From NCBI GenBank assembly GCA_028284585.1, contig JANQRK010000075.1, positions 1 through 64,000 of the forward strand: a DNA stretch of 64,000 nucleotides, in the 5' to 3' direction. Of this stretch, positions 164 to 55,704 are shown piece by piece. Under the pieces are notes generated by a model. That model made no database searches. It was not told the origin of the DNA and saw only the letters and a program-made list of their open reading frames with translations. The first letter of the stretch is position 1. Each line of letters opens with the position of its first letter. The stretch is from Chromatiales bacterium (GTDB lineage: Bacteria; Pseudomonadota; Gammaproteobacteria; Chromatiales; Chromatiaceae). The translations under genes were made by a program, and so were the position numbers.

Positions 164-1521
164 CCGGTGCTGCTTAGGCGTGCGCGGATGTCGGCCTTGG
201 CTTGGTCGACGATGGATTCGCGATCGAGGCTGTCGAGGATCTCGCGGATCGCCAGCTTCGGACCGGCATCGCCCCATGACTTGCCGTTGGCAAGGTAGCG
301 CTCGGCGGCGCGGCCGACCACATAGGTGCTGTAGTAGGCGACGACGCCTTGCGCGCCACCTGTGACCACGGTCGAGATACCGCCGGTGCCCAGCTTCAGC
401 GCCGATGCAACGAAATGCACGGCCCAAACCGTTCCCATCAAGAGCACCATTTGGGCACCAATCGTCGTGACCAGGCCGCCGGCCTCGGTACGACTCAGCG
501 GCAATCCATAGGCACGTGATAGATGAATCACCATGCTGACATCGACCGCCGCGGCCGCGATCAGGTCGGCTACTGGCACCGGATTGATCGCCACCGCGAC
601 ACCCTTGGCGATGCACCAGGTGCGCACAACGCGCTCGCCCAGGGTACGCCGCGCAGCCAGCACGCGTGTTGCGACCTGGTCGGTTAGCTCGCCGGCAAAT
701 AGCGAGGCATTCAATGCGGCCAGGGTCTTGCCCTCGTTGTCCAGTACGTACCACAGTCGCTCCTTGAGCGCGCTGATCTCAGGCGGTGGTTGACGCTGCT
801 CCTCGACCTCTTCGCCGCGCTCGTCCAACCGTACTACCCATTGCGGTGCCGGCTGGGCAGCCGTGAGCACCAGGTTTTCGGGATTGAGTAGTCGTTTACT
901 GTGGCTGCGCAGTGCGTCCAGTAGCTGCACCCGCTCCTCGGTGCTGTAGCGGTCGCTCTTGTTGAGGACCATGATCATCGGTCGCCGAAGCTTCGCCAGC
1001 GTGCGCAATGCCTCTATCTCGATCTGTGTCAGGTCGCCATCGACGACGAACAGGATCAGATCGGCACGGCCGGCGACCTCTCGGGCGAGTTGCTCGCGTG
1101 CCTCACCTTCGACCTCGTTGATACCTGGGGTGTCGATCAGAAAGACATTGCCATCGCGGTATTCGTCCCACTGGCCGCTCTGGATACTGCGGGTCTCGCC
1201 ATGCAATGGGCTGGTCGAGAAGCGCTGCTCACCGAGCAGAGCATTGACCAAGGCAGACTTACCCACACTGACGCGGCCGAACACCGCGATATGGATATGG
1301 CCACGCTCGAGTTTCTCGAGCATCGACTGCACCTGTTTGTAGTCATCTTCCAGGGCAGAACGCACTTCACCGGGGACTCGCTCGTCGTGTAGCAGTTCGC
1401 GCAGGCTCTCGCGCGCCAGCTCTAGGTGGGTATCGCCACTGGGCTCAAGATTTTTCGCTCGTGCGGACCTGTTCCACAACCAGTCGGGCAAGGTTTCGCG
1501 CAGGCGATTCCATATCTTCAC
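160..1521 (-). CDS. Dynamin/Era-like GTPase with C-terminal DUF697 domain
   Basis: This 453-residue GTP-binding protein has a visible G domain: P-loop GRVSVGKSALVNALLG, switch motif DTPGIN and base-specificity motif NKSD. The C-terminal third is hydrophobic and resembles DUF697/YcjF-type regions (AINPVPVADLIAAAAVDVSM and following), so membrane association is likely. The ORF track extends to 1722, but those extra residues are a frame shadow of the upstream gene. A GTG at 1521 preceded by GAGGAG gives the natural start VKIWNRLRETL. The gene overlaps the end of the upstream GTPase gene by 77 nt, which implies coupled expression. The TAG stop lies in the CTAG end of a repeat element. The cellular role of such pairs is not established; envelope-stress or membrane-remodelling functions are guesses. 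Confidence 0.85.
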   Translation of the reverse strand: MKIWNRLRETLPDWLWNRSARAKNLEPSGDTHLELARESLRELLHDERVPGEVRSALEDDYKQVQSMLEKLERGHIHIAVFGRVSVGKSALVNALLGEQRFSTSPLHGETRSIQSGQWDEYRDGNVFLIDTPGINEVEGEAREQLAREVAGRADLILFVVDGDLTQIEIEALRTLAKLRRPMIMVLNKSDRYSTEERVQLLDALRSHSKRLLNPENLVLTAAQPAPQWVVRLDERGEEVEEQRQPPPEISALKERLWYVLDNEGKTLAALNASLFAGELTDQVATRVLAARRTLGERVVRTWCIAKGVAVAINPVPVADLIAAAAVDVSMVIHLSRAYGLPLSRTEAGGLVTTIGAQMVLLMGTVWAVHFVASALKLGTGGISTVVTGGAQGVVAYYSTYVVGRAAERYLANGKSWGDAGPKLAIREILDSLDRESIVDQAKADIRARLSSTG

Positions 1522-2941
1522 CAAGTTTCTCCTCAAAGAGTTTTGCAGTCTGGCGCGGGCGCAGTTCACCGCGCGTCGCCAGGGTCGTGACCAAGGCGCG
1601 GCCCAAGGTACGGAAGATGATGCCGTAGGCGACCGCATGCATGGCACCGCCGGCCAGCGTCCCGACCCCGGGAAAGGCTTTGAGTGCATTGCCAGCGACT
1701 GCCAGCAGCAAGGTGTGGGCACGCCCGACGTGCTTCTGCACCAGCTTCAGCAGTAGCTCGGTATCCATCTTCGAGACCTTGACCTCATACAGCGCCGACA
1801 GTTCACGCACCATCTGCGTGCCGAGGTAACCCTGAATGAGCAGGTCCGACCCGGGCGCGATGGCAGCCATTGCACCGATCACTGCCTTGGTGGAGTAGCT
1901 ATCGACCAGTTGTTCGCCTCGCTCACGGCGCGCGGTGGCGATCGCCTGATCGACCTGCTGGGCGGCGAGCACGAAGGTTGCGCTGTCGCGTAGGCGGTCG
2001 AGAATCTCCTGGTTGCCGTCGATCAGGCGTTGCAGTGCATTAGTGAGGGGCTTTACCTTGGGGGTGATCGGACGTGTCTCGAGTTGTTCGCGGCCGTCGG
2101 GGAGTTGGCGTACGATTTGACGCGTAGTCGTGGCCGAGACCTGCACCAGTTGGGCGTATTCATGATCGGCAATTATGTCGCCCAGGCGTTTGGACAGCAG
2201 GGCGATGTCGTCGGCCTGGTAGCGATCCGCTTTGTTGAGCACCACGACCAGCGGTTTACCCAGTGCGAGCAGCCCTTGCAGGGATTTGTGCTCGTTACGG
2301 TTCAGGTCACCATCGGTCACAAATATTACAATATGCGCCCGCTGTGCCTCATCGGCAGCCATCTGGTCCAGGTCGCCGTCGGCCTCGGCGGTACCCGGCA
2401 TATCCGTGATCTGCAAGGTGTCGCCACCCGGGCTGACCCAGCGATAGCGCATCAGGTCGCGGGTGGTGCCGCCGCGCACATCGCTGGTAGCTTCGCAATC
2501 GGGCAACAGTGCGCTTACCAGCGCCGACTTCCCCGTCGAGACCTCGCCGAACAGCGCGACATGAATGTCACCGCTGGCGCGGCGCCGTTTGAGTTCTTCG
2601 AGTTCGCGTTGGGCGGCACTGACATCGGTTCCCAAGGCCTTGGCCTTTTCGATCGCGGCGTCGACCTCCTCGGCGGTGGGTGCTTCGACCTCTTCGTCCT
2701 CGATCACTTCCCGCCGCGGCCGGCTCGGTCGCAGTAGTCGCCAGACGATCCAGGTGATCACCAGGGCCACTGTCCCGACCAGGCCCCACCAGGCGTAACC
2801 CAACCAGCCTACAGTTTCTTGCAGGCGGGCCTGCACATTGAGTGTGGCCTCGCTGATGATCAGGATCAGCAGCAGTGCTCCAAGGCCGAGCACCACCACG
2901 GCCATAGCGATCAGCAGACGAATACTGCGAGGCAGATCCAT
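1445..2941 (-). CDS. Membrane-anchored GTPase with DUF697-like C-terminus
   Basis: The protein has 498 residues. Two N-terminal membrane segments (about 8-30 and 45-67) are followed by an acidic, coiled-coil-prone linker and a GTPase domain with P-loop GEVSTGKSALVSALL, DMPGTAEADGD as G3 and NKAD as G4. The C-terminal half (about 340-470) resembles the DUF697 region of its neighbour. It is first in a two-gene operon with the downstream paralogue. Two related GTPases in tandem, one with its own membrane anchor, suggest a heterodimeric membrane GTPase, as in dynamin-like pairs; that is inference. The ATG start at 2941 is the natural one, because the hydrophobic segment follows directly. Confidence 0.85.
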   Translation of the reverse strand: MDLPRSIRLLIAMAVVVLGLGALLLILIISEATLNVQARLQETVGWLGYAWWGLVGTVALVITWIVWRLLRPSRPRREVIEDEEVEAPTAEEVDAAIEKAKALGTDVSAAQRELEELKRRRASGDIHVALFGEVSTGKSALVSALLPDCEATSDVRGGTTRDLMRYRWVSPGGDTLQITDMPGTAEADGDLDQMAADEAQRAHIVIFVTDGDLNRNEHKSLQGLLALGKPLVVVLNKADRYQADDIALLSKRLGDIIADHEYAQLVQVSATTTRQIVRQLPDGREQLETRPITPKVKPLTNALQRLIDGNQEILDRLRDSATFVLAAQQVDQAIATARRERGEQLVDSYSTKAVIGAMAAIAPGSDLLIQGYLGTQMVRELSALYEVKVSKMDTELLLKLVQKHVGRAHTLLLAVAGNALKAFPGVGTLAGGAMHAVAYGIIFRTLGRALVTTLATRGELRPRQTAKLFEEKLGEDMESPARNLARLVVEQVRTSEKS

Positions 2942-3087
2942 GCGGGATTCTCCGGCGCGAGTTGCTGCTTAAGCTACCGCAGTGTGGGTTGGCCGACAAT
3001 GCATGTCGGTTGCGCCTGTAGCGATTAGAATGGGCCGATCGGGTGGCTGTCTCGACAGAGCTCAACCACCCGACCAGGCGTGGCCGC

Positions 3088-3507
3088 TCAGGCCGGGGAG
3101 TAGATAGAGCGGGCTGGGGACTTAACCTTGCCCTGCCTTTTGAGGTAGGCGAGCGTCTGGGCGAGATTGTTGGCTACAACGCCGCGTTTCTCGAGTGCCG
3201 ACTTGATCTCCTTGGTCGACACCTTTTTCGACTTGTGGACGATCTCGAGGACGTGTTCTGTCACGCTACCGTCACCAGACCCACGCCGCTTGGCGCGACG
3301 AGTGCGTCCGCCGAGGGCGCGAATCTCCGCGTCGACTGCAGACAGTTCCTTACGATGACGGGCAACGATGTCACGTCGGGTTTGGCGCAAATCTTCAAGT
3401 TGCGCTCTAGTTTCTTCCTTGGCCTCTTCTTCTTCTTGCAGCTCGCGCTCTTGGGCAAGCCTGTAGAGTTCGTCTGAACTCAAATTCGACAACTGCTTCT
3501 TAGCCAT
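3088..3507 (-). CDS. Small coiled-coil protein with C-terminal winged-helix-like region
   Basis: The protein has 139 residues. The N-terminal half is highly charged and heptad-like (about 10-65, rich in E, R and K). A basic hinge, GGRTRRAKRRGSG, leads to a C-terminal segment of about 60 residues (VTEHVLEIVHKSKKVSTKEI...) with the spacing of a small winged helix ending in KSPARSIYSP. This suggests a dimeric DNA-binding or nucleoid-associated protein, but I do not recognise a named family. The ATG at 3507 has a GGAG about 10 nt upstream. It lies downstream of a 1.25-kb gene-free stretch and reads in the same direction as the GTPase pair. Confidence 0.7.
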   Translation of the reverse strand: MAKKQLSNLSSDELYRLAQERELQEEEEAKEETRAQLEDLRQTRRDIVARHRKELSAVDAEIRALGGRTRRAKRRGSGDGSVTEHVLEIVHKSKKVSTKEIKSALEKRGVVANNLAQTLAYLKRQGKVKSPARSIYSPA

Positions 3508-4763
3508 TTAAATCGGGCTCCATCAAGAAAGTGTTACTGGTACTTTAGTGAAAAACCGGAGAGCAGAATGTAAATACTCTCGAGGATGCGAAATATAGCG
3601 ATATTGTTGCAGCTTTGCAACGATTATGAGATTCGCGCAAAGTCATATCCAGACTCTTCTTGAGCGATATCAATTGACGCTGTTCGTGCTACACACAAGC
3701 TATGCCATCGCCTTCAGGTTAAACGATGGACAATATTGCTTTCTTTTGTAGCAGTTAAATGGGGCATTGCCTGACGATAAGAGGTCTTTTCTGCTCCCGT
3801 CGATGGGCAGTTTAATTATATGTGATCACCTTCCGAATTTTCCGGATGTATTGCGCGATGGCGGCCGGATACTAAACAAATGACCCTTGGGGATCAGGAG
3901 ACTGGGACACCCGCAGCGTGCCTGGCGGATAGGTGGGCCGGTATAGGTTCGCATCCGCCATTCGTGGAGCAGGTGTGCCAAGCGGTGGGGATACAGTGTC
4001 TCTTTAACGCATCCGGATCACCCGACGCACAGTGAGTACTGTTTTGTGTACTGGAGCGCCGTTCATCCGAGGTCGAACATGGCTCATGACCGCTGAACCG
4101 GACCCTCGCCCGAATATGTCACCAGCCGAACAAGGTCTGCGTCGCAAGCGGCTGAGCATAAGAGAGAAGGTCGCTGATAAAGGATGGATTCGGCAGGCGG
4201 AATTTGTGCTCGGTGTGGTGCTAACCCGATAGCGGCTGTTTCTTGCCCGCCGTGGCTGGGTTTTCATGCAAGCGATTGCAATGGCCGTCACTTTTGTTCC
4301 AGACCGGCACCACGGCCGCTGCGGATCTCGCCAGTCCCTGGGAAGCTGGTGACATATTCGGACTAGGGGTTACAAAAACTGCCGAAGTCATCGCGTCGGA
4401 CAAACTAGTCTCGCCAGGCATTGAGGCGATCTCCTCGCATCTTCGAGGGTCGGATGCCAATAGTGGATGCGACGCTAGGCCTCAGAACTCTCTGGGGCGA
4501 AAGTGATAGGGCTGGCTAGCGGCGGAGCTGACGTGGTTCCATTGTAGCGGAACCTCGCTGTCGAGCGCTCCTCTAAGGGCCTCTGAGAGCAAGCAGGGCA
4601 CAGCTGAGGGTTGTTCTAGGATCATCGGAACCTGAGTTTGGTACCTTGCGCTGTGCCGTGGATGTGGCGAGGCCGCGGCTGATCGTTGTCTCGCCTATGC
4701 TATTTTGATCTCTCGAAACTAAAGATGGCGACACAGGCCGAGTACGCCATCACACGCTCTGGT
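3508..4763. other. Gene-free stretch of about 1.25 kb
   Basis: No convincing coding sequence is present. The first 400 bases are AT-richer than the flanks and probably hold the promoter of the minus-strand gene at 3088-3507. The track ORFs here (4004-4291, 4032-4232, 4221-4460) are short, overlap on both strands and resemble nothing. The one clear structure is a 17-bp perfect inverted repeat, listed separately. Confidence 0.5.
4110..4361. repeat. 17-bp inverted repeat spanning about 250 bp
   Basis: The sequence ccgaatatgtcaccagc (4110-4126) recurs as its exact reverse complement at 4345-4361. The outer flanks are partly similar (ccctcgc and aacccctagt). The span of about 250 bp is close to that of the B and C foldback elements, so this may be a decayed relative or a single-copy miniature element. 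There is no second copy in the window to confirm that. Confidence 0.45.
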
Positions 4764-5951
4764 TCAGGCGGGGCCCTTGCTGGAGACGCCGTACTCGTGG
4801 TTCAAAAACGCCAGGACCTCGGCACGGTTTCCGCGGAACACGACGCGTTCCGTCTTTTTTCTGAGCTGATACTCGTACATACCGTCGTAGTAGTCACGCA
4901 GTAGGAAACCGACCCATGCACGATGCGGTTCGATCTCACCATCCTGTGCGTGCCGCTCGATCGCTTGGTCCAAGAGTTTGCGCACTAGTGCATGACGTTC
5001 GCCGCCGAGACGACGCTGGATGCGATCGGTGCTGGTGCGCAAAGAGTCGGCCCAGCGTTGGAACCCGTGGGTGTCGCCATACTTGTTGCGGAACTCGGCC
5101 AGGGCATCCTGTGCATACTCCTGCAGCGTGATCTCGACACGTTCCTCGTGGCTGGCCTCGAGCAGGACCAAGGGGGCCGTCTCAAGGCGCTCGAAAAATA
5201 CCTTGGGGACATGGCGGCTGCCGATGTTTCTGCTTTCGTCTTCGACAACGAAATGGGGATTGTCTCCTTGGGTGTGTTTGAGCAAGGTGATCGAGAGCGC
5301 GTTCTCGAAATTGATCTGAGTCGGCTGCGGCGCAACATGGCCACCGTACGCTGAGCCGCGGTGATTGGCCAGGGCCTCCAGATCGATGTGCGTCGCGCAG
5401 TGTGTGAGCAGCCGCGTCTTGCCGACACCGGTTCGACCACCGATCACCACCGGCCGACTGGCGGGGCTATTCTGATCCAACTGTTCGAGTAGGAAGCGCC
5501 GCATTGCCTTGTAGCCGCCGCGTACGCGCGGGCAGTGGATGCCACGCTCTTCGAACAACCAGCGCTGGCTGATCTCGGAGCGTTTGCCGCCACGGAAGCA
5601 GTACAACGCAGCGCCCGGATGGCGCCGTAAAAATGCGCTCCAGTTCTCGATGCGGGCTGCCTTCAGGGTGCCGCTGACTAGTTGCTCGCCGAGTGCAATC
5701 GCCTGTTGCTGGCCTTGGTCTTTATAGGTAGTTCCGATCCGCTGGCGTTCCGAATCGTCGATCAGTGGATGGTTTTCTGCACTGGGGAAGGCGCCCTCGG
5801 CGAACTCGACCGGGGCACGCACATCCATCAAGGGAGTGTCGTCGAGAAATAGTGCGTGCAGGTTGTCGATCTGTTCCAAATCGCGCGAGGATATCGATGG
5901 AAGCTCTTTTGGCACGGTGTCTGGATCGCTTCTGTGCAGGTCGGTAGGCAC
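4764..5951 (-). CDS. mnmH: tRNA 2-selenouridine synthase
   Basis: MnmH (SelU/YbbB) converts 2-thiouridine at wobble position 34 of some tRNAs to 2-selenouridine through a geranylated intermediate, using selenophosphate. The 395-residue protein has an N-terminal rhodanese domain with the expected catalytic cysteine in YCFRGGKRS, then a P-loop NTPase-like domain beginning VVIGGRTGVGKTRLL. The length is close to that of the E. coli enzyme. The start is uncertain: 5951 is a GTG with no clear ribosome-binding site, and a second GTG at 5915 is possible. It is divergent from tcdA, another tRNA anticodon-loop enzyme, across about 110 bp. Confidence 0.92.
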   Translation of the reverse strand: MPTDLHRSDPDTVPKELPSISSRDLEQIDNLHALFLDDTPLMDVRAPVEFAEGAFPSAENHPLIDDSERQRIGTTYKDQGQQQAIALGEQLVSGTLKAARIENWSAFLRRHPGAALYCFRGGKRSEISQRWLFEERGIHCPRVRGGYKAMRRFLLEQLDQNSPASRPVVIGGRTGVGKTRLLTHCATHIDLEALANHRGSAYGGHVAPQPTQINFENALSITLLKHTQGDNPHFVVEDESRNIGSRHVPKVFFERLETAPLVLLEASHEERVEITLQEYAQDALAEFRNKYGDTHGFQRWADSLRTSTDRIQRRLGGERHALVRKLLDQAIERHAQDGEIEPHRAWVGFLLRDYYDGMYEYQLRKKTERVVFRGNRAEVLAFLNHEYGVSSKGPA

Positions 5952-6062
5952 CCAGGAGGCAGGTGTGACCGTCCCGGCCGCGGCTATTGGCCTTTACTAT
6001 ACAGCGCCCGGGGGTCGGCATCTGCCACAGGTGACTGCATTCAACGGATACTGGGGCGGGAA

Positions 6063-6836
6063 TTGGACTATCAGCGACGATTTGGTGGCTTGGCGCGACT
6101 GTATGGGGAGACCGGCTTGGCGGCCCTGGCGGCCGGCCAGGTTTGTGTGATCGGCGTTGGCGGCGTCGGCTCTTGGGTAGTGGAGGCTTTGGCACGCAGC
6201 GCGGTCGGCAGTATCACGCTGATCGATCTGGATCATCTGAGCGAATCCAATATGAATCGCCAGTTGCCGGCGATCGAGCCGGATCTGGGCCGGGCCAAGG
6301 TCGATGCGCTACGTAATCGGGTTGCACAGATCAACCCAGGCTGTGAGGTGCAGGCCATCGAGGAGTTTGTTTCGATCGACAATGTCAAAACCCTGGTGAC
6401 GCCGGACCACAATTGGGTAATAGACTGTATCGACGATGCGCGTGCTAAGGCCGCTTTGATTGCCTGTTGCCGGCGACGCGGCCAGGCTGTCATTACGGTT
6501 GGTGGAGCTGGTGGGCAGCGGGATGCCACACGGGTTCGTGTGGGCGATCTGTGCAAGACCGAACAAGATCCGTTGCTGGCACGAACGCGTCGGCTATTGC
6601 GCCGCGAATACGGCTTTCCACTCGATTTGAAGCGCAGGTTCCAAGTGCCTTGCGTGTGGTCAGACGAGCCACAACGTGCGCCCCCGAGCAGTGGCGAAGG
6701 GCCAGTCGCGGGTTCGTTGAACTGTGCAGGATACGGTGCCTGTATGCCGGTTACCGCGACCTATGGCTTGGTTGCGGCCGGCTTCGTGATCATGCAACTG
6801 AGTGAAGGCCGCGATACCTCCGCGCCTTCGTATTGA
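6063..6836 (+). CDS. tcdA: tRNA threonylcarbamoyladenosine dehydratase
   Basis: TcdA (CsdL/YgdL) is an E1-like ATP-dependent enzyme that cyclises t6A37 of ANN-decoding tRNAs to ct6A. The sequence shows the nucleotide-binding motif VIGVGGVGSW, the family segment DLDHLSESNMNRQ and a C-terminal region with conserved cysteine. The track ORF starts at 5856, but the first 69 codons read poorly and run back into the mnmH coding region. I place the start at TTG 6063 (LDYQRRFGGLARLYG, where homologues begin) behind a gggcggga stretch, giving 257 residues, near the E. coli length. Confidence 0.9.
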   Translation: MDYQRRFGGLARLYGETGLAALAAGQVCVIGVGGVGSWVVEALARSAVGSITLIDLDHLSESNMNRQLPAIEPDLGRAKVDALRNRVAQINPGCEVQAIEEFVSIDNVKTLVTPDHNWVIDCIDDARAKAALIACCRRRGQAVITVGGAGGQRDATRVRVGDLCKTEQDPLLARTRRLLRREYGFPLDLKRRFQVPCVWSDEPQRAPPSSGEGPVAGSLNCAGYGACMPVTATYGLVAAGFVIMQLSEGRDTSAPSY

Positions 6837-7987: not shown

Positions 7988-8254
7988 CTAGTGGGCCAAG
8001 CGGATAATTCTGTAACGCTCAGGGCCACTGTGCGGGCGCGAATCAAGGCGTGTTTCGCAGGCAATGGCGCGCCCTTGGCAAGAAACGCAACACCGAGTCG
8101 CGCTCGCACAGTGGCTCCCAAAGGGCCATGGCACAAGCATCGTGGGCTGTGTTGCCGTCCTTGGAAAGGGCCTGCCATTCCCCGCGGACTGCGCCTTGCC
8201 CACAATGCTTGTGCCGCGGCTGAGCGTTACAGAATTATCTGCTTGGCCCACTAG
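7988..8254 (+). repeat. Family B foldback element, copy 2 (complete)
   Basis: This 267-bp element has terminal inverted repeats of about 35 bp beginning CTAGTGGGCCAAGCGGATAA. Inside lie two inverted arms: one formed by gccactgtgcg and cgcacagtggc, and one by ggcacaagcatcgtgggc and gcccacaatgcttgtgcc. The whole could fold as a three-way junction. It has no coding capacity. It lies upstream of bchE and is nearly identical to the copy at 51701-51968. Confidence 0.9.
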
Positions 8255-51700: not shown

Positions 51701-51968
51701 CTAGTGGGCCAAGCGGATAATTCTGTAACGCTCAGAGCCACTGTGCGAGTGCGAATCAAGGCGCGTTTCGCAGGCAATGGCCGCACCCTTGGCAAGAAAC
51801 GCAACACAGAGTCGCGCTCGCACAGTGGCTCCCAAAGGGCCAGGGCACAAGCATCGTGGGCTGTGTTGCCGTTCTTGGAAAGGGCCTGCCATTCCCCGCG
51901 GACTGCGCCTTGCCCACAATGCTTGTGCCGTGGCTGAGCGTTACAGAATTATCCGCTTGGCCCACTAG
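51701..51968 (+). repeat. Family B foldback element, copy 3 (complete)
   Basis: The 268-bp element has terminal repeats of about 35 bp (CTAGTGGGCCAAGCGGATAA and its inverse), a 15-bp perfect internal arm (gagccactgtgcgag / ctcgcacagtggctc) and an 18-bp arm with one mismatch (ggcacaagcatcgtgggc). It lies between the 3' ends of rne and the phosphatase gene, whose TAG stop is part of the right terminal CTAG. Confidence 0.92.
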
Positions 51969-52752: not shown

Positions 52753-54540
52753 ATGGGCAATCGGCGCAAGCTGAAGTTGTTCATTAGTTATAGGCGTGCC
52801 GATGCAAGCGGCAGCGCCGGGCGGCTGTTCGATTGGTTGACACGCCAGTTTGGACGCCGCCGAATATTTTTAGACACCGACAAGATCGCCGCCGGGGACC
52901 GCTTTCCCGAGGTACTCGCACAACGCATAGCGAACGCCGATGTCGTGCTTGCTGTAATTGGCCCAGGGTGGTTGACGATCGCCAACCAAGACGGCCGACG
53001 TCTCGATCAGGTCGACGACTATGTCCGCATCGAGATTTCTAAGGCGTTGGAGAGCGGCAAGCGTGTCATTCCGGTGCTGGTCGGTGGCGCAGAGGTGCCC
53101 GACCGTGCGGCGTTGCCGCCGGCCCTGCAAGGGCTCGCCGATCGCCATGCGATGGTGCTGCGCGATGCCTTCTTCGAACAAGACTTCGATCTGTTGATAG
53201 ACGATCTGCTGGGCCGCCAACGCGGCTATGCCAGGACAGAACTGGACCGACTACAGCGTCTACTTCTGGCCATAAAGCTGTCTTCACTGCTGGTGCCCAG
53301 TCTGACGCTGCTGGCGGTACTCGGTCTCTGGCTGGGACTGCTCGACAAACTGGCACTTGGCACCGGGGTATCCAGCCACCTGCTCGCCCTGGCCAACGAG
53401 GTATCTCCGCCACCGAGCGACCCCGGTGTTATCTTGGTGGCGATCGACCCAGCCAGCGAGCAACAGCTGCAGCGACCGTTTGGTGGCTCTCCGGCTTGGC
53501 GTCTCGACCACGCCCGGCTGATCGACCGCGCTGCGGCCGCGGGGGCACGCGCGGTAGTGTTCGACCTGTTTTTCGAACAGCCCACCACGGCCGATGCAAG
53601 CCTAGCGGCCGCCGCATCGCGTGCCGGCGAATCACCGGCCAGGACCCGCGTGGTGTTCGGGGTGCGTGCCCTCACAGATGATCAGCCACGGCTGTTGCCG
53701 GTCCTGTACGAGGCCGCCGCGTGGGGCTCGCTATGTCTGCGCCGCCCGTTCGGACACCACAGCTATGCGGCACCACTCGCGGTGCTCGGTGACCGACGTC
53801 TGGGTCCCGCATCCAGGGCAGCCCACACCCCGGCCCTGGCATTGGCCGCTCTGGGCGGAAATTTGCAAGCTGTCGATTCAGCACGGCGCACTATCCTCAC
53901 TACCGACCCTGCAAACCAGGTTGGCGCGCCGCGCTTTTCGCAGATCAGACGCATCCGGGGTAGCTGGGGCAACTGCGCCACCCTCGCCGACGGCGATGAC
54001 GTGGCGATGCTGCTGATCCAACCGGCACCCGATGGCTATTGGGGGCAACCGGCGCGACGCATCTCCTATGCGGATGCCGTCCATGGCGATGGCCGATCCA
54101 CGCAAGCCCTGCGCGACCGTATCCTGCTGGTCGGAGTCACACTCCCTGGGCTGGACCAATATCCAGTGGTCAGCGGCTTTTTACGCCGCCAGTCATTCGG
54201 CGTTGAACTGCACGCCGATGCGATCGCGGCACTGCGCAACGGGCGCGAGATCGTGACGCCGTCAGTCGATCGCGGGGCTATCATTCTGCTGTTAATGGTT
54301 AGCACCGGGGCAAGCATTGGGTTTCTCACCGCGACCTGGGCGCGCGCCCGTCGGAGTTTTGCATTAGGCAGCCTTGCCCTGACCTACCTGCTGATCGCGC
54401 TCGGCCTAGCCAGCCAGGGGCTGCTGCTCAACTTGGTGTACGATGCCACGGCGTTCCTGGTTGCCTATGCAGTGTTACGCCGATTGCGGACTGGCGGCTT
54501 CACATCCAAGGCAAGCACTTTGACGGAGGCATGTGAATGA
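52753..54540 (+). CDS. TIR domain-CHASE2 membrane protein
   Basis: The 595-residue protein starts with a TIR domain (about 5-145: LKLFISYRRADASGSAGRLF, IFLDTDKIAAGDRF, and YVRIEISKALESGKRVIPVL with the glutamate expected to be catalytic in NAD-cleaving TIRs). A membrane segment follows (about 175-200), then a CHASE2 extracytoplasmic sensor domain (about 210-490, ILVAIDPASEQQLQRPFG, AVVFDLFFEQP) and about three C-terminal membrane segments. In known CHASE2 proteins the output domain is C-terminal; here it is N-terminal. I start at ATG 52753. It is coupled (ATGA) to a FecR lipoprotein gene. A TIR NADase or signal generator controlled by an envelope sensor is the likely role, possibly in defence. 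Confidence 0.85.
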   Translation: MGNRRKLKLFISYRRADASGSAGRLFDWLTRQFGRRRIFLDTDKIAAGDRFPEVLAQRIANADVVLAVIGPGWLTIANQDGRRLDQVDDYVRIEISKALESGKRVIPVLVGGAEVPDRAALPPALQGLADRHAMVLRDAFFEQDFDLLIDDLLGRQRGYARTELDRLQRLLLAIKLSSLLVPSLTLLAVLGLWLGLLDKLALGTGVSSHLLALANEVSPPPSDPGVILVAIDPASEQQLQRPFGGSPAWRLDHARLIDRAAAAGARAVVFDLFFEQPTTADASLAAAASRAGESPARTRVVFGVRALTDDQPRLLPVLYEAAAWGSLCLRRPFGHHSYAAPLAVLGDRRLGPASRAAHTPALALAALGGNLQAVDSARRTILTTDPANQVGAPRFSQIRRIRGSWGNCATLADGDDVAMLLIQPAPDGYWGQPARRISYADAVHGDGRSTQALRDRILLVGVTLPGLDQYPVVSGFLRRQSFGVELHADAIAALRNGREIVTPSVDRGAIILLLMVSTGASIGFLTATWARARRSFALGSLALTYLLIALGLASQGLLLNLVYDATAFLVAYAVLRRLRTGGFTSKASTLTEACE

Positions 54541-55388
54541 GATCGGCACACGCGCAGCGCTGGCGCCTGGCTCGGCTAGTCATCGGGCTCTGTTGCTTAT
54601 GGCTGGCCGGCTGTGCCGGTACCCAGTTGAAGAAGGTCGTTCACGAAGATGCCGCAAGCCCCAACGGCTATGTCGAGGTCAGCACGCCGCACCGCGGGCT
54701 GCTGACAGTCTCGCGCGCTGGTGAGGCGCTGCCGGTAAGCACCCCACTACAGCTGCGCGAGGGCGACGAAATCGAGACCGGCCCTGATGCCGGGGCGGTG
54801 ATCCGCTTTGACGATGGTAACCAAGTCGTGCTCGGGCCCAGCACTAGGGTCCGCCTGGGCTCCCTTGAGGTGCTGTTTGGCCGGCTGCTGGCCGAGGTAC
54901 GTGGCCTGTTCAGCGTCGAGGACGACACCCTTGTCGCCGGCGTCGAGGGGACCCGCTTCTTGTTCGAGTCCAAGCGCGGCGGTCCTACCAAGGTTATGGT
55001 ACTGGAGGGCGTCGTGCATTGCAGCTCCAAGACCACGAGCTGGCCAATGATCCGACTGACCGGCGCGCAGGCATTGAGCGCAGCCTACGGCAGCGCTGAG
55101 CCGCGTATCGCCCAGGTGAGCCACGCCGAGCTGTCCGAGATCGAGCAATGGGCAAATGCCATCCGAACCGCGCCACGTGCTGGATTTTGCTGCAGCGGCG
55201 GTGCGGTGGCAGGCGCCTATTCCGATGCTTGCCGCGGCCGCTTCTTCACCGACGAGGCCGCTGCCACAGCGGCCTGTAAGCGGGTCGGGCATGCACCACC
55301 CCCGGCAATCACCCCTAGCCGTATCCCCGCGCCGCATCGGGTGCCAACCGATGTGCGCAGGCTGCCGCCGCGGCCGGCGATCGAGTAA
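54537..55388 (+). CDS. FecR-domain lipoprotein
   Basis: The 283-residue protein has a lipoprotein signal ending LWLAGC, then a FecR domain (about 45-150: LREGDEIETGPDAGAVIRFD, VVLGPSTRVRLGSLEV, GVEGTRFLFE) and a cysteine-rich C-terminal segment (GFCCSGG...CRGRFFTDEAAATAAC) with a proline-rich tail. FecR proteins with CHASE2 proteins form known gene pairs in which FecR is thought to signal to CHASE2 across the periplasm. The start overlaps the TIR-CHASE2 stop, behind GGAGG. It is probably the periplasmic input partner of that protein. Confidence 0.87.
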   Translation: MRSAHAQRWRLARLVIGLCCLWLAGCAGTQLKKVVHEDAASPNGYVEVSTPHRGLLTVSRAGEALPVSTPLQLREGDEIETGPDAGAVIRFDDGNQVVLGPSTRVRLGSLEVLFGRLLAEVRGLFSVEDDTLVAGVEGTRFLFESKRGGPTKVMVLEGVVHCSSKTTSWPMIRLTGAQALSAAYGSAEPRIAQVSHAELSEIEQWANAIRTAPRAGFCCSGGAVAGAYSDACRGRFFTDEAAATAACKRVGHAPPPAITPSRIPAPHRVPTDVRRLPPRPAIE

Positions 55389-55398
55389 GCACGGCATC

Positions 55399-55704
55399 AT
55401 GGGTAATACAAACCTGCATCAGCGCTTGCAACAACTTCTGGGCGGCCGTTTCCACTATCTCGGCGAGCGCTGGGTGCTGATCGAAGTCCTCGCGGACACC
55501 GACAGCGTGGTCCTGCGCCGCTGCACCCAACACCCAGATTGGACGGTCCAGCGCAACGCCTATGGGGTACCGAATCGTCGGGTCGAAGACACCCTGACAC
55601 TGCGAATCTCCGACGACGACGGCGGATATTCTCAAGACCTGTTGGTCTTACTCGAGGGTCATCAGCCCGACTCCGACTCAACTTCAGGCTCCAACTCTGG
55701 CTAA
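55399..55704 (+). CDS. Small protein of the TIR-CHASE2/FecR module
   Basis: The 101-residue protein (MGNTNLHQRLQQLLGGRFHY) has no signal peptide or membrane segment and ends in an acidic, serine-rich tail. The core (LGERWVLIEVLADTDSVVLR, VEDTLTLRISDDDGG) looks like a small beta fold. I do not recognise a family. It starts 11 nt after the FecR stop, so it is third in the operon; an immunity, adaptor or regulatory role is possible but not shown. The track's longer frame begins inside the fecR-like gene. It converges with kdsB, 3 nt apart. Confidence 0.7.
   Translation: MGNTNLHQRLQQLLGGRFHYLGERWVLIEVLADTDSVVLRRCTQHPDWTVQRNAYGVPNRRVEDTLTLRISDDDGGYSQDLLVLLEGHQPDSDSTSGSNSG

Follow-up and report, generated by a model that had tools for sequence, protein, structure and literature searches.

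Gene organization and genomic context

The window, i.e., the whole stretch of 64,000 nucleotides that was analysed, belongs to a contig of 94.8 kb (G000:C114) in a genome of 4.06 Mb that is 94.75% complete. It contains an ORF coding for a TIR-CHASE2 membrane protein (P0001, 595 amino acids; 52753-54540, forward strand), followed on the same strand by an ORF for a FecR-domain lipoprotein (P0002, 283 amino acids; 54537-55388), and then by the P0003 gene (101 amino acids; 55399-55704). The first two ORFs overlap by 4 nt (54537-54540) and a gap of 10 nt (55389-55398) separates the FecR gene from the P0003 gene, which agrees with the gene order and spacings given in the original prediction. The pair formed by the first two genes is surrounded by housekeeping genes (rne, LMW-PTP, kdsB, and lpxK). 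A promoter and terminator scan yielded no signal clearly exceeding chance. Between rne and the LMW-PTP gene, a MITE-like element of 268 bp (51701-51968) was present. Its terminal inverted repeats are perfect over 35 bp, further inverted repeats are nested inside it, and the end of the element supplies the stop codon of the LMW-PTP gene. A second copy of this element occurs in the window (7988-8254) and the genome contains dozens of copies, either complete or partial, most of which are 93-98% identical and many of which are located at contig ends. Relatives of the element are present in congeners too.

P0003 had no match in Pfam, NCBIfam, PADLOC, or PHROGs. A homologue occurs, once per genome, in 74 of 204 genomes of the family, mostly without TIR-CHASE2, and adjoins kdsB in every locus of a relative that was read. 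In five genomes of the same genus (G193, G192, G187, G191, and G188), the LMW-PTP gene lies directly beside the P0003 homologue, after which kdsB, lpxK, and exbD/tolR-like genes follow, the TIR-CHASE2 and FecR genes being absent in between. Two of these genomes with an empty site (G192 and G187) carry their own TIR-CHASE2 and FecR genes elsewhere (L040 and L044, respectively). The intergenic DNA at the empty sites was, as judged by eye, too diverged to place an insertion junction. Since P0003 belongs to the core kdsB/lpxK locus and occurs in many relatives that lack the TIR/FecR pair, it is not part of the unit. Hence, the three-gene operon was rejected on the basis of the empty site and of the P0003 family in relatives without the pair; the earlier claim of one tight operon and one system held as to order and spacing, but not as to the membership of P0003. 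P0003 is a neighbour of the insertion site and the real unit consists of two genes. The pair may either have been inserted into this core locus or have been lost by the relatives, the distribution favouring an insertion.

Domain architecture of the TIR-CHASE2 protein

The N-terminal part of P0001 contains a TIR domain (residues 10-148; 52780-53196; Pfam TIR_2, E 1.5e-12). It is followed by a first transmembrane helix (residues 180-199; 53290-53349), seen by hydropathy and as a helix in the model, by a CHASE2 match (residues 185-515; 53305-54297; Pfam CHASE2, E 2.2e-22) that was also retrieved by a genome search, and by three further transmembrane helices (residues 507-579; 54271-54489), which the model places at residues 507-525, 531-553, and 558-579. 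The matches to TIR_2 and CHASE2, as well as that of P0002 to FecR, all exceed the curated Pfam cut-offs. The CHASE2 match overlaps the first and second transmembrane helices and the stretch between them is predicted to be periplasmic. Both hydropathy and the AlphaFold2 model thus give one membrane helix before CHASE2 and three after it. By the standard topology of CHASE2 proteins, both termini of P0001 should be cytoplasmic and CHASE2 should be periplasmic. No output domain was found C-terminal of the fourth helix by Pfam, hydropathy, or the AlphaFold2 model. The domain order originally proposed, namely an N-terminal TIR, a membrane segment, CHASE2, and C-terminal helices, was therefore recovered, and the proposal that the output is N-terminal instead of C-terminal is supported.

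Structure prediction returned the expected TIR fold, the nearest structures found by Foldseek being those of the SARM1 TIR (TM-score by target 0.84, E 4.2e-8). Similarly, a phmmer comparison of the TIR domain with PDB chains retrieved the SARM1 TIR (E 1.5e-8), in an alignment that places the Glu of the motif DYVRIEI (Glu94; codon 53032-53034) on the Glu of SARM1 WVHKEI, which is the catalytic E642. P0001 aligns along its full length with seven homologues (29-53% identity), and none of the eight TIR-CHASE2 proteins deviates from FISYRR or Glu94. Given this SARM1-like fold and sequence and the two invariant motifs, NAD cleavage by the TIR domain of P0001 is plausible. SARM1 is regulated by cytosolic ARM/SAM domains, whereas the TIR of P0001, for which SARM1-type NADases are the nearest solved fold and sequence, would be regulated by a membrane CHASE2 domain. 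The pLDDT of the TIR part of the AlphaFold2 model was mostly 57-88 per ten-residue block; the middle of CHASE2 and the membrane part were modelled with low confidence, which counts against the signalling role proposed below. The same holds for the PADLOC results on P0001, as TIR matches were weak and partial and no PADLOC family matched over the full length. The best matches in this defence library, to the TIR segment only, were Thoeris ThsB and ThcB4, that of ThcB4 reaching 47.5 bits against a cut-off of 220. P0001 differs from these by its membrane sensor, and no gene for a ThsA-type or other effector lies beside the window pair among its neighbours rne, LMW-PTP, kdsB, and lpxK.

The FecR lipoprotein

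The second gene was confirmed to code for a FecR lipoprotein. Indeed, P0002 starts with a signal peptide carrying the lipobox LAGC (Cys26; 54612-54614), contains a FecR domain (residues 77-160; 54765-55016; Pfam E 2.2e-8; also found by a genome search), and ends in a cysteine-rich tail with four Cys (CC...C...C; 55188-55277) that was apparent both in the sequence and in the partner alignment. The lipobox is kept in the FecR partners at L040, L043-L046, and L102, and is absent from the one at L042. A repeat of about 33 residues (CC..G...C.G.F...C) ends FecR partners, once in the window protein and about three times in that of a congener (L040, 8428-9426). Foldseek matched the model of P0002 to the periplasmic domains of the anti-sigma proteins PupR and BDI_1681. 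The periplasmic fold is thus common to P0002 and the FecR of FecI-FecR-FecA regulators, but the latter have an N-terminal cytoplasmic anti-sigma domain where P0002 has a lipoprotein signal, and no ECF sigma gene, as in FecI-FecR-FecA, was present among the neighbours of P0002.

Distribution of TIR-CHASE2 and its partnership with FecR

Eight copies of TIR-CHASE2 were found in 7 of 210 genomes of the family, seven beyond the window copy. A FecR gene lies within approximately 1.1 kb of the TIR-CHASE2 gene in seven of the eight copies, in the same direction in the window, L040, L044, and L046, and in the opposite direction in L042, L043, and L045. This variable orientation indicates that the linkage is not merely one inherited block of DNA. 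At L044 (G187), the two genes are separated by a gene of the same direction that codes for a PstS-like periplasmic binding protein (PBP_like_2; 5750-6637). The genome without an adjacent FecR gene (G017) contains an unlinked FecR-PASTA lipoprotein, which is 50% identical to the partner in G065 (L043) and 48% identical to that in G016. The number of FecR genes per genome ranged from 2 to 5, and none was found within 1.5 kb of approximately 40 TIR-only loci, which had small flanks. Furthermore, FecR-PASTA proteins occurred in 3 of 204 genomes of the family, all with TIR-CHASE2 (hypergeometric 2.5e-5, ignoring relatedness), a count that leaves out G120, in which the match covers part of the PASTA region only. 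The trees of FecR and TIR-CHASE2 had groups in common, namely the window copy with G192, G187 with G065b, and the rest, the FecR tree being short and weakly supported and containing one long-branched row. As to a possible single origin, the TIR-CHASE2 fusions formed one clade in 52% of the bootstrap trees.

The pairing of TIR-CHASE2 with FecR is thereby supported by adjacency, congruent trees, and co-occurrence, and homologues show that these two genes, without P0003, are conserved together. In view of the FecR adjacency, the orphan FecR of G017, the common tree groups, and the peptidoglycan-binding modules of several partners, TIR-CHASE2 and FecR very probably form a functional unit. This unit appears rare. 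Among the best three first-look candidates per genome in class- and phylum-level sampling, no further full-length TIR-CHASE2 was found. Two collections of plasmid and phage records yielded TIR-only matches or nothing, and viral contigs one TIR-only match. Likewise, a peptide-pattern search of genome contigs retrieved solely two relatives (L009 and L010), namely a chloroflexote protein with a TIR alone and a cyclase with CHASE2.

Wall-binding modules and related architectures

The FecR partners differ in what accompanies the FecR domain. Those at L043, L045, and L102 carry seven PASTA repeats and that at L042 carries PG_binding_1, whereas the partners in the window and at L040 have the cysteine-rich tail in place of a wall-binding module; those at L044 and L046 are short. 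The genome of the window also contains the ordinary form of the pair, in which a LysM-FecR gene overlaps a CHASE2-PAS-GGDEF-EAL gene (L047, 5266-9932). In addition, relatives encode single-chain TIR-TM-PASTA proteins, with one PASTA repeat (L023, 1492-3057) or five (L069, about 1500-3537), in which a cytoplasmic TIR is linked to wall-binding repeats and CHASE2 is absent. Together, the PASTA and PG_binding_1 partners, the LysM-FecR pair, and the TIR-TM-PASTA proteins suggest that the unit senses the cell wall or the way in which the wall is connected to the outer membrane. Conflict systems of the iSTAND type with transmembrane segments and PASTA, PEGA, or OmpA modules have been described (PMC7159879) and offer a parallel as regards conflict proteins linked to the wall.

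Comparison with known CHASE2 systems

Pairs of CHASE2 and FecR proteins are known from the Burkholderia BiofilmReg operon, which encodes a LysM-FecR protein and a CHASE2 histidine kinase (PMC5192318), and from Campylobacterota clusters, which encode a CHASE2 adenylate cyclase and a FecR-domain outer membrane protein (PMC9239204). As in the window, an inner-membrane CHASE2 receptor is encoded next to a FecR-domain protein, which in many cases possesses a wall-binding module. However, the output of these known receptors is a C-terminal kinase or cyclase, whereas P0001 has an N-terminal TIR and nothing C-terminal; a C-terminal kinase, cyclase, or GGDEF output is usual for FecR-paired CHASE2 receptors, not strictly defining. 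Nor is the inverted layout unique, as the account of Trichodesmium erythraeum in PMC3501461 includes a protein with an N-terminal metacaspase, a transmembrane segment, CHASE2, and three transmembrane segments. The effector is a caspase homologue in that case and the paper mentions no FecR partner. CHASE2-FecR pairing and N-terminal effector-CHASE2 fusions are each known, separately. No TIR output fused to CHASE2 was found in the open-access literature searched by full text, so that the known sensory pair equipped with a TIR output, as a rare two-gene unit, is apparently undescribed.

Proposed function

The most economical reading, to which we give an even chance, is a two-gene unit that signals from the envelope to NAD. 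The FecR lipoprotein, probably anchored in the outer membrane, would monitor the cell wall or the outer envelope and contact, as an activator or a restraint, the periplasmic CHASE2 domain of its inner-membrane partner. CHASE2 would in turn change the conformation of the membrane region with its four helices, or the way in which this region associates. The N-terminal cytoplasmic TIR domains would thereby be brought together into an active assembly that cleaves NAD+, resulting in its depletion or in an ADP-ribose-type signal. Cells whose envelope is attacked, for instance by a phage or predator, might in this way stop growing or die. The proposed relay from FecR to CHASE2 would work like the Rcs pathway, no homology being claimed, in which the outer-membrane lipoprotein RcsF reports the state of the envelope to the inner-membrane protein IgaA. 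This signalling model builds on the domains, the fold class, the predicted membrane layout, the invariant Glu, the FecR partnership, and the absence of the pair from the locus of congeners, from which we infer the FecR-CHASE2 contact, the identity of the signal, the enzymatic activity, and the outcome. Besides the modelling and PADLOC results, it has against it that Pfam recognised no peptidoglycan-binding domain in P0002 and that neither effector or defence genes nor a defence island were found around the window pair; that some TIR domains are scaffolds speaks against NAD cleavage. More tentatively, the pair might represent a hitherto undescribed kind of cell-wall surveillance, in which a TIR NADase in the cytoplasm is gated directly, across the inner membrane, by FecR lipoproteins that bind peptidoglycan or by PASTA repeats belonging to the TIR chain itself, such that a breach of the envelope by a phage, predator, or rival leads to loss of NAD. 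Such a bacterial transmembrane TIR receptor would have a plan comparable to that of the Toll receptor.

Among the alternatives, a dedicated anti-phage abortive infection system, in which envelope damage during phage entry or lysis is the trigger and the TIR kills by NAD depletion, is conceivable but on the doubtful side. An anti-phage role is possible, as TIR NADases often serve in defence, with precedents reported for Thoeris, TIR-STING, and SpbK (PMC12578639, PMC9402430, PMC12847820), and as the pair is patchy, being present in 7 of the 210 genomes of the family, with five congeners showing an empty site. Yet, the copies read had no defence or effector genes nearby (the surroundings of the remaining copies being judged by eye), phage and plasmid records contained no full-length copy, and PADLOC families had no full-length match.

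Second-messenger regulation without killing, in which gene expression or envelope repair is controlled by small amounts of a cyclic ADP-ribose-type signal that the TIR makes, seems unlikely. The TIR would then play the part that a cyclase or GGDEF domain has in other CHASE2 proteins. Indeed, a second-messenger output (GGDEF-EAL or a nucleotide cyclase) is found in every other CHASE2 protein of this genome and the housekeeping surroundings fit such a role; however, no evident signal receptor was seen beside the pair in the loci read by eye.

A non-catalytic TIR that assembles with and recruits another cytoplasmic TIR protein is less probable still. The genome contains at least three other TIR proteins, and assembly of signalling complexes is given as the commonest role of TIR domains in the account cited (PMC7075850), but the invariant Glu aligned with the catalytic Glu of SARM1 and the nearest folds, which are those of the SARM1 NADase and not of adaptor TIRs, argue otherwise. 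Finally, P0003 as a functional component of a three-gene operon, which the 10-nt gap in the window would favour, is highly improbable, given that its family sits beside kdsB in relatives that lack the pair, that no other TIR-CHASE2 locus contains a member, and that five congeners have it next to the LMW phosphatase gene.

The bacterial TIR immune proteins of the papers cited above sense infection from within the cell, through phage capsid proteins or nucleotides. If the signalling model holds, bacteria would possess a genuine transmembrane TIR receptor, in that an envelope receptor facing outward gates the TIR, and wall sensing would be tied to NAD-based responses. The conserved pair represents a small two-gene unit that is open to direct assay.
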